From contig CAMYLR010000006.1 in NCBI GenBank assembly GCA_947259315.1, positions 1-64,000 on the forward strand: 64,000 nt of DNA, in the 5' to 3' direction. This DNA is from an uncultured Gemmatimonadales bacterium. GTDB taxonomy: Bacteria > Gemmatimonadota > Gemmatimonadetes > JACCXV01 > JAHWKZ01. Positions 1 through 13,403 of the stretch are shown piece by piece (position 1 is the stretch's first letter; every line of letters starts with the position of its first letter). The notes under the pieces are model-generated. The model had not been told where the DNA came from. It saw only the letters and a list, made by a program, of their open reading frames with translations, and ran no database searches. The position numbers and the translations under genes are program-made.

Positions 1-2634
<2,634 letters not shown>

Positions 2635-2637
2635 CGG

Positions 2638-3765
2638 TTAGCCCACCCTCGCCGCCCGCATCGCAGCGATAAACGCATCCAGATGGTGAAAAGCGTCGTG
2701 GGGTCCGGGTGCCGCCTCGGGGTGGTACTGGACCGCAAACAACGGCCGCTCGACATGTCTAAAGCCCTCGACGGTATCGTCGTACAGATTGATGTGGGTC
2801 ACCTCGAGTTGGGGCGCGCCTGCAACCACGCGCACACCTCCATGTCGTGTTTCCACTACGGCAAACCCATGATTGTGTGATGTGATGTCGATCCGACCGG
2901 TCGACAGCTCCTGGACCGGATGATTCCCGCCGTGGTGACCAAACTTGAGCTTGTACGTCTCGCCACCATGCGCCAAAGCCAGCAGCTGATGCCCCAGGCA
3001 GATGCCGAAGGTCGGCACCTCGGGTGCGCGCGAGGCTAGCGACTCGAGAGTCGCGATCGCTCGCCCGACTGCGGCTGGATCACCGGGACCGTTGGAGACA
3101 AAGAGCCCGTCGGGCTCGTGTTCCAGCACCGCCTCGGGCGTAGCGTCAACCGGAAGTCGAACTACTCGACAACCACCATCATTCAGCCTCCGAACGATGT
3201 TCTGCTTGAGGCCCAAGTCGAGCGCTGCGACCAGCAGCTCGCCGTCACCCTCGACCTTGGTCGCTGAGCACGACACCGCTCCGGTCAGATCCTGCCCCTC
3301 CATCGCCGCGATCGACGCCGCCCGGGCCACTGCCGGCTCGACCTCCAGCAACTCGGTCGAGATGATCCCCCGCAGCGCACCTCGCTCCCGCAGGTGGCGC
3401 GTCAGCGCGCGCGTGTCGATCCCGTCGATCGCGACGACACCGTTGCGCTCCAGATGCTCGGGTAGTGTTTCAACAGCCCGCCAGTTGGAAGGCTCCTGGA
3501 CACACTCGCGCATTATGAATCCCGCCACCTGGGGCGAGTCTGACTCCCCGTCCTCGACGGTAATACCGTAGTTCCCGATCAGCGGGTACGTCATGACGAC
3601 CAGCTGACCGGTGTAGGAGGGATCCGTCAACACCTCCTCGTACCCGGAGAGGCAGGTGTTGAACACGCACTCGCCGGTCGCCGTACCGGTTGCGCCAACC
3701 GCGGTGCCGAGAGCGGTCCAACCGTCTTCGAGGGTCAATCGAGCCGGTAGCCGAGTTGTTCTCAC
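2638..3765 (-). CDS. carA: Carbamoyl-phosphate synthase small (glutaminase) subunit
   Basis: Glutamine amidotransferase subunit that hydrolyses glutamine and channels ammonia to CarB. About 375 aa from the GTG at 3765. The N-terminal CPSase_sm domain contains RLTLEDG and GECVFNTCLSGYEEVLTDPSY; the class I GATase domain has the nucleophile in TFGICLGHQLLALAHGG (Cys about 256) and the His/Glu pair in QYHPEA (about 348). The frame stays open 14 codons further upstream, but that stretch runs through a terminator hairpin and U-tract. I therefore prefer the GTG, which overlaps the stop of a short leader ORF (GTGTGA context). Normal family length. First gene of carAB, likely controlled by transcription attenuation in the leader. 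Confidence 0.95.
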   Translation of the reverse strand: MRTTRLPARLTLEDGWTALGTAVGATGTATGECVFNTCLSGYEEVLTDPSYTGQLVVMTYPLIGNYGITVEDGESDSPQVAGFIMRECVQEPSNWRAVETLPEHLERNGVVAIDGIDTRALTRHLRERGALRGIISTELLEVEPAVARAASIAAMEGQDLTGAVSCSATKVEGDGELLVAALDLGLKQNIVRRLNDGGCRVVRLPVDATPEAVLEHEPDGLFVSNGPGDPAAVGRAIATLESLASRAPEVPTFGICLGHQLLALAHGGETYKLKFGHHGGNHPVQELSTGRIDITSHNHGFAVVETRHGGVRVVAGAPQLEVTHINLYDDTVEGFRHVERPLFAVQYHPEAAPGPHDAFHHLDAFIAAMRAARVG

Positions 3766-3824
3766 ACGCAAAAAAAAGTCTCCGCCTGGCGGAGACGCAC
3801 GATGCACTTTGTCGTATCGATCAT
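3762..3824 (-). CDS. Putative carAB leader peptide (20 aa)
   Basis: Short ORF starting MIDTTKCIVR and ending in a Val codon plus TGA. It has a strong Shine-Dalgarno-like GGAAAGGAAG a few bases before its ATG. Codons 10-18 run straight through the hairpin and U-tract of the terminator at 3770-3796, and the TGA overlaps the carA GTG start. This arrangement matches the logic of the E. coli pyrBI leader: a ribosome closely following RNA polymerase would block hairpin formation, while fast polymerase (high UTP) would terminate. Seen: ORF, SD, hairpin, overlap. Inferred: that it is translated and senses pyrimidines. Translational coupling to carA is also possible. No homologue is recognised, as expected for a leader peptide. 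Confidence 0.6.
   Translation of the reverse strand: MIDTTKCIVRLRQAETFFCV
3770..3796 (-). terminator. Intrinsic terminator/attenuator inside the carA leader
   Basis: On the minus strand an 8-bp perfect GC-rich stem (GTCTCCGC/GCGGAGAC) with a CAG loop is followed at once by eight T residues, ending 5 nt before the carA GTG. It could simply end plsC transcription. However, its position abutting the carA start and inside a leader ORF with its own SD argues for a regulated attenuator. Confidence 0.8.
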
Positions 3825-3907: not shown

Positions 3908-4636
3908 CTACTTTCCGCTGGCGGGTTCAGCAACGGGTTCGGCCATCAAAGCCTGCATCGCGACGCGGACTTCGCGCATTAGCTCATCCCGTGCGTCGGT
4001 GCCACGGCCGGCAGTCGGTATCGGCGCGCCCAACCGCACCGTAATCGAGCCATGTCCTACGCGTAACGATCGAGCCTCCATGACGTCCTCGGTGCCCAGG
4101 ACCACTACCGGGACGACCGGTACGCCGGCCTTGAGCGCCATCATGAAGCTCCCCTTCTTGAACGGCAGCAAGGGCTCGCCGGGACCACGCGTGCCTTCCG
4201 GGAACACCAATACACTGATCCCCTCGCGAATCTTGCGGGCTGCGCTCTCGAGGCTCTTGATCGCCTCCTCGCGATCGCTCCGATCGATCGGGATAAAGCG
4301 GCACATCCACAGCGCCCACCCGAAGATGGGAATAAAGAACAACACCCGCTTGGCGACCATCCTCAACGAATGTTCGGTCGCCAGAAACAGCGCGAAGATG
4401 TCGAAGATCGACCGATGATTGGACATGAAGATGTACGGCTGATCCAGCTCGAGCGTCGACTTCGACTCGACGCTCATCGGAATCCGGAGGGTGCCCAAGA
4501 TCCATCGCGACCAAATCCGGGCGAACGACAGATACAGCTCGCCGCGAGGGCTCAACGGCCAGGTGATGATCCCGAGCGACGACCAGAAGAGCGTATACGC
4601 TACCCCGATCGTCCAGGCGAAGACCGTGCGTCCCAT
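3908..4636 (-). CDS. plsC: 1-acyl-sn-glycerol-3-phosphate acyltransferase (PlsC family)
   Basis: Transfers an acyl group to lysophosphatidic acid to make phosphatidic acid, at the inner face of the cytoplasmic membrane. 242 aa, the normal size for the family. An N-terminal hydrophobic segment (VFAWTIGVAYTLFW) anchors it. The catalytic NHxxxxD motif is present as NHRSIFD (about residue 73) and the glycerol-phosphate-binding block as FPEGTRG (about 146), followed by PVVPVVV. It lies 18 nt downstream of a small lipoprotein gene and about 140 nt upstream of carA, separated from it by the attenuator region. A paralogue using another acyl acceptor is possible, so the substrate is by family only. 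Confidence 0.9.
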   Translation of the reverse strand: MGRTVFAWTIGVAYTLFWSSLGIITWPLSPRGELYLSFARIWSRWILGTLRIPMSVESKSTLELDQPYIFMSNHRSIFDIFALFLATEHSLRMVAKRVLFFIPIFGWALWMCRFIPIDRSDREEAIKSLESAARKIREGISVLVFPEGTRGPGEPLLPFKKGSFMMALKAGVPVVPVVVLGTEDVMEARSLRVGHGSITVRLGAPIPTAGRGTDARDELMREVRVAMQALMAEPVAEPASGK

Positions 4637-13133: not shown

Positions 13134-13166
13134 AAAAAAAAAGCCTGCCCGCGGAGCGGACAGGCG
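13134..13166 (-). terminator. Riboswitch-linked intrinsic terminator upstream of btuF
   Basis: Minus strand: 10-bp stem (GCCTGTCCGC / GCGGGCAGGC, one G-U) with a TCC loop, followed by about nine T. It lies between the cobalamin aptamer and the btuF start. The aptamer's GGAGACC can pair with GGTCTCC just before the terminator stem, and its CCTGCC with GGCAGG in the 3' arm, suggesting alternative anti-terminator pairings. Confidence 0.85.
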
Positions 13167-13229
13167 AGGGAGACCGGGCGAGCCGACCTCTCGCCGCATC
13201 CCTCCCGCGAAGGATACTGACGGCGAGCG

Positions 13230-13365
13230 CTTCGAGGCAGGTCTCCTGGCTTTGGTCGCCCGGTCGGGCAACCGTCACAGTGGCGGGGCCGCTGCGGATT
13301 CACACCGCATTCCCATATTCTCCCATCGCCGACGATCGTCGTCGACAGGCACCTCGAAACGACTA
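13230..13365 (-). promoter_or_regulatory. Cobalamin riboswitch (aptamer)
   Basis: Read on the minus strand the region shows the conserved order of the B12 aptamer: GAGGTGCC at the 5' side, then GGGAA..GCGGTG.GAATCCGC, then the B12 box CCCCGCCACTGTGA, and AGCCAGGAGACCTGCCTC at the 3' side. All four blocks are in place and spaced as in the family. It precedes an intrinsic terminator and the btuFCD-btuB operon, so B12 excess should cause premature termination. Class by known consensus; ligand by inference from the class and from the downstream transporter genes. Confidence 0.95.
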
Positions 13366-13403
13366 TTGCGCTACGTCATTCGCACCTCACCGCTAAACGG
13401 TGT

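Follow-up and report, generated by a model that had tools for sequence, protein, structure and literature searches.

A probable PyrR-controlled, ribosome-dependent transcription attenuator before carAB in a family of Gemmatimonadota

The carAB genes in the window (the whole stretch of 64,000 nucleotides analysed here, from an uncultured Gemmatimonadales bacterium) are probably preceded by a transcription attenuator that is controlled by PyrR and depends on a translating ribosome. The carA leader contains a hairpin of the PyrR-binding type with a Shine-Dalgarno (SD) sequence inside it, a short leader ORF served by this SD, an intrinsic terminator within the ORF, and a leader stop codon that overlaps the carA start (Table 1); these elements are conserved in related genomes, and the genome of the window encodes PyrR. 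From this arrangement we infer that PyrR binds here, that the leader is translated, that transcription can read through the terminator and that ribosomes reinitiate at carA.

Table 1. Features of the carA leader and its surroundings, with positions in the window
Feature	Position	Strand	Description
Leader ORF	3824-3762	minus	20 codons MIDTTKCIVRLRQAETFFCV + TGA; ATG 3824-3822, TGA 3764-3762
Leader SD, AAGGA	3835-3831	minus	6 nt 5' of ATG; within 3' arm of PyrR hairpin
Predicted PyrR-binding stem-loop	3829..3869	minus	Outer stem CUUCCUUUU/GGAAAGGAAG, inner CG(A)CGUC/GGCGCG, loop CUGUGA
Intrinsic terminator	3796-3778	minus	GTCTCCGC-CAG-GCGGAGAC; inside leader ORF; 8 bp, 3-nt loop, -12.8 kcal/mol
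Terminator T8 tract	3777-3770	minus	Read in frame by leader ORF
carA GTG start/leader stop overlap	3762..3765	minus	carA GTG 3765-3763; GTGA common to stop and start
carA, carbamoyl-phosphate synthase small subunit	2638..3765	minus	TIGR01368, 431 bits, cut-off 307
carB, large subunit	1..2637	minus	NF003671, 1436 bits; gene truncated by contig edge
plsC-like, 1-acylglycerol-3-phosphate acyltransferase, upstream of carA	3908..4636	minus	TIGR00530, 112.6 bits
Cobalamin riboswitch	13143-13371	minus	RF00174, 81.6 bits; then 10-bp terminator + T9 at 13165-13143

Read 5' to 3' on the minus strand, the leader runs CTTCCTTTTAAATCGACGTCCTGTGAGGCGCGGAAAGGAAGTTCC ATG ... GTCTCCGCCAGGCGGAGAC TTTTTTTT GCGTGTGAGAAC. 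An earlier note, made from the window alone, had described a 20-codon ORF that has a strong SD, crosses a hairpin terminator with eight U and overlaps the carA GTG with its TGA; the sequence bears this out to the base. Within the first 15 kb of the window, the terminator ranks among the two strongest. All three reading frames are open through the hairpin, so an open leader frame alone is unsurprising. No SD was found at the usual distance 5' of the carA GTG; in four of the five family genomes described below, carA could alternatively start at a TTG that lies in the U tract and has the GGAG of the terminator 3' arm as its SD, but this TTG is out of frame in G002. No promoter of carA was recognised, and the plsC-like gene may be cotranscribed with carA. 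The full leader, folded in silico, was not more stable than shuffled sequences (z -0.77).

The candidate sensor, which the earlier note did not contain, is the PyrR-binding hairpin that holds the leader SD. RF00515, the Rfam model of the PyrR binding site, matches directly 5' of the leader ORF (39.9 bits, E 2.3e-4 in 261 nt), with an alignment spanning the hairpin through the terminator, and this is the only match in the 2.4 Mb genome of the window (G000). Three of its four family relatives (G001, G003 and G004) likewise have a single match per genome, before carA; the scores in the window and in the family relatives (37.6-48.4) are under the Rfam gathering score of 54. The two-part stem and the conserved loop (CNGNGA, then GG) are present, the loops being CUGUGA or CCGUGA. 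Across the aligned carA and pyrR boxes, C-G/U-A, G-C/C-G and G-C/A-U pairs covary, giving 9 double-change cells where shuffles give 4.0 (none of 500 shuffles as high), and slid registers came nowhere near the real register. A local model, R1, was built from these aligned boxes with the window sequence in its training set; it found a single match in G000 (59.4 bits, E 5.8e-11), and the single strong site that it finds in a genome lies at carA, these being sites on which it had been trained. The 3' arm GGAAAGGAAG of the hairpin is itself the leader SD, which is predicted to be almost always paired (P(unpaired) <=0.04 for GGAAAGG).

The genome of the window carries pyrR (NF003549, 236 bits, cut-off 138) at another locus, followed by pyrB. 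Of the solved structures, the one that this PyrR matches best is 1ufr, the pyr mRNA-binding attenuation protein of Thermus. The protein is also present in G003 and G004; it was not found in G001 (79% complete) despite an intact box. Given a PyrR hairpin that contains the leader SD and a PyrR protein in the genome, the likely sensor is PyrR with a uridine nucleotide rather than UTP-dependent pausing of the polymerase.

The earlier note had proposed to look for conservation of the leader ORF and hairpin across relatives and would have taken a leader ORF that is not conserved as refutation; every genome in the family comparison (G000, that of the window, and G001-G004, all related) retains both, while the peptide diverges. 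The leader ORF and the stop/start junction occur in 5/5 genomes, the terminator stem is conserved and the T8 tract is invariant. The distance from leader start codon to terminator stem is exactly 28 nt in G000, G001, G003 and G004 and 31 nt in G002, and the overlap of the leader stop with the carA GTG is the same in G002, G003 and G004, with TGA-2 nt-GTG in G001. The first 9-10 leader residues differ between genera (MIDTTKCIV, VNHPPGFGD, MKHDPTLVS and MKVPAPILDG), which suggests that translation is kept and not the peptide. In G002, three nucleotides are inserted before the hairpin and the loop is one nucleotide longer. Owing to this longer loop the frame after the hairpin differs, yet the shifted frame, too, ends in a stop that overlaps the carA GTG. 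For each leader, 20,000 shuffles were searched for an ATG or GTG correctly placed after the SD with an ORF that runs through the terminator and stops at the carA start. This arrangement arose in 0.9-3.9% of shuffles per leader, yet it is found in 5/5 family genomes, whose relatedness means that these per-leader values cannot simply be multiplied.

The carA leader of G002 (L005/L014) retains the leader ORF and terminator and has lost the PyrR loop consensus from its upstream hairpin, which still covers the SD. No PyrR was found in this genome (55% complete), and a switch of sensor is possible there.

In the proposed mechanism, when pyrimidines are plentiful, PyrR with bound uridine nucleotide (UMP) would close the upstream stem-loop and hide the leader SD; the leader would then stay untranslated, the terminator 28 nt past the leader start codon would fold, and transcription would stop before carA. 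When pyrimidines are scarce, PyrR would leave, and ribosomes would translate the leader across the terminator stem and prevent its formation. They would halt at the TGA overlapping the carA GTG and could reinitiate there, as carA lacks a well-placed SD of its own. RNA polymerase at the U tract is about 55 nt beyond the leader start, and with so short a leader the timing would be tight, for the ribosome must start fast or the polymerase must pause.

The earlier note had placed this leader with E. coli pyrBI, in which low UTP pauses RNA polymerase so that the ribosome catches up and blocks the terminator, with no protein sensor. What holds of that comparison is the layout of pyrL, a short ORF that passes through the hairpin and T8 and stops at the start of the structural gene. 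The U-rich, UTP-sensitive pause tract does not hold: pyrL has UUUUUCUUCCC before its hairpin, whereas the longest U run in the 28 nt between leader start codon and hairpin is 1 in G000 and 1-3 in the relatives, so UTP sensing of the pyrBI type is not supported. The SD is moreover buried in the PyrR hairpin and PyrR is encoded in the genome, and an attenuator of the pyrBI type is very improbable here. Of the pyrimidine sensing proposed at the time, control by pyrimidines is thus favoured by the comparative evidence and sensing of UTP is not, and the same evidence argues for the ribosome-coupled attenuation that had been proposed with it. Alternatively, the PyrR hairpin could act as an anti-antiterminator as in Bacillus, its 3' arm pairing with the terminator 5' arm when PyrR is absent and the ORF being incidental. 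A PyrR box and a terminator are indeed present, a 5-bp GCGGA/UCCGC pairing exists in G000, and the pyrR leaders of G005 and G152 (treated below) look like this. Nevertheless, the antiterminator pairing in all five carA leaders was no better than with shuffled upstream sequence, since 132, 253, 333, 210 and 373 of 500 shuffles were as good (132 for the window), in contrast to the pyrR leaders of G005 and G152, where 15 and 16 of 500 shuffles equalled it; nor would such a device need to keep the ORF, SD and stop/start junction, and we hold it very unlikely at carA.

Control could also be mainly translational, with PyrR hiding the leader SD, carA translation coupled through the stop/start overlap, and the terminator playing a minor part. 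The sequestered SD and the conserved overlap fit this, as does its likeness to mycobacterial PyrR control; a perfect T8 terminator with an invariant stem in 5/5 genomes speaks against it, and as the main mode of control it is highly improbable, although both modes can act together. That the terminator is simply the one of plsC, with a chance ORF over it, would agree with its place downstream of plsC and with the three open frames through the hairpin. However, only 4 nt separate the end of the U tract from the carA GTG, which leaves no room for a promoter and a leader, and the PyrR box and ORF are conserved, so that this explanation is scarcely credible. Leader-peptide attenuation by arginine was also considered and rejected, as the five leaders have 2, 3, 1, 1 and 4 Arg codons and no run of them. 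With the pyrBI and Bacillus readings failing these tests, the reading that remains is that PyrR gates the ribosome and the ribosome gates the terminator.

Among the 116 carA-upstream sequences compared (Gemmatimonadota and other phyla, several genomes being represented twice), the combination of PyrR motif and terminator was found only in the family of the window. Of 119 genomes sampled from the class, 110 encode PyrR. Strong PyrR boxes were detected in only 6 of 295 genomes under stricter filters, which can lose weak sites, and most of the 30 pyrR-upstream regions examined contained neither motif nor terminator. With PyrR common and its boxes rare, PyrR-box attenuation looks confined to a small part of the phylum, and within it carAB looks, from the sequences compared, like the target in one family.

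In G005, which belongs to another family of the same order, the only RF00515 match stands before pyrR; the region (L164/L160) has a PyrR box and a strong predicted antiterminator, with no ATG, GTG or TTG leader start between box and terminator, and so resembles an attenuator of the Bacillus type within Gemmatimonadota. The RF00515 match in G152, a member of the same class, also stands before pyrR; besides the PyrR box, this pyrR leader (L166, 1500-1640) has a possible antiterminator and an ORF of 12 codons that ends just before a terminator with T9. Upstream of pyrR in G004 (L158) and G003 (L159), an CCGCGAGG motif is present together with a hairpin that has T8 after it, unrecognised by RF00515; in the upstream region of G000 pyrR, neither this motif nor a hairpin with T8 was found. 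Other matches were set aside: the weak R1 matches in G130, G153 and G314 (E 0.02-0.08) precede no recognisable pyr gene, the L179/L180 sites seem to fall inside a coding region, and two RF00515 matches in G014 have no recognisable pyr gene downstream within the stretch read. Beyond the phylum, the carA leader of an Omnitrophota sequence (L074, 2850-2945) has the SD AAGGAGG in a hairpin loop and a 25-codon ORF through a terminator with T9, and is a candidate leader-ORF attenuator at carA without a PyrR motif. T8 intrinsic terminators stand just before carA, with promoter-like sequence 5' of them, in L044 and L054 (WOR-1, Margulisiibacteriota), which are candidate attenuators without a PyrR motif.

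In a survey of cis-regulatory RNAs (PMC3766115), the PyrR motif is among those listed as known, and Gemmatimonas is not mentioned. Our literature search turned up no publication on control by PyrR in Gemmatimonadota. Most of the genomes sampled from this phylum encode PyrR but yielded no detectable PyrR box, and the present leader shows probable control of carAB by PyrR there. The arrangement can be set beside four known systems. E. coli pyrL, alike in its ORF through terminator and T8, stops 3 nt before pyrB, and it is unlike the present leader in its 44 codons, its U-rich pause region before the attenuator and its lack of a PyrR hairpin. The Bacillus subtilis pyr attenuators (RF00515) share the order of PyrR-binding hairpin and intrinsic terminator, whereas here no antiterminator beyond chance is seen and a leader ORF stands in its place. 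In the mycobacterial pyrR leader, PyrR represses translation and the PyrR hairpin contains the SD; in contrast, the SD here belongs to the leader ORF over the terminator and not to the structural gene.

The closest likeness is with the Thermus pyrR-pyrB-bbc-pyrC operon, for which Van de Casteele et al. reportedly proposed in 1997 that PyrR and a translating ribosome act in place of an antiterminator. A leader ORF overlapping the terminator, with its start region under the PyrR site, is found here as in the Thermus type, and of the solved structures it is Thermus PyrR that comes closest to the PyrR of the window's genome. Set against the reported Thermus device, the differences are that the target here is carAB, away from pyrR, that the lineage is Gemmatimonadota and that the leader stop overlaps the start of the structural gene. 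carAB in this lineage is therefore a new setting for the principle of PyrR and ribosome proposed in Thermus; should that precedent match in every detail, the leader would be a further member of the Thermus kind in a different location. At this operon, which lies apart from pyrR, PyrR appears to work by way of the ribosome instead of the antiterminator known from textbooks. Within the order, it is conceivable, at somewhat less than even confidence, that two PyrR outputs are in use. At pyrR (G005) the output would be an antiterminator; at carAB (family f1) it would be a terminator gated by the ribosome, with coupling of stop and start. PyrR attenuation would then have moved to carAB, and its readout would have changed from RNA refolding to translation. 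The phylum offers a compact comparative case, in which one RNA-binding regulator would be read out in different ways, by RNA refolding or by ribosome coupling.
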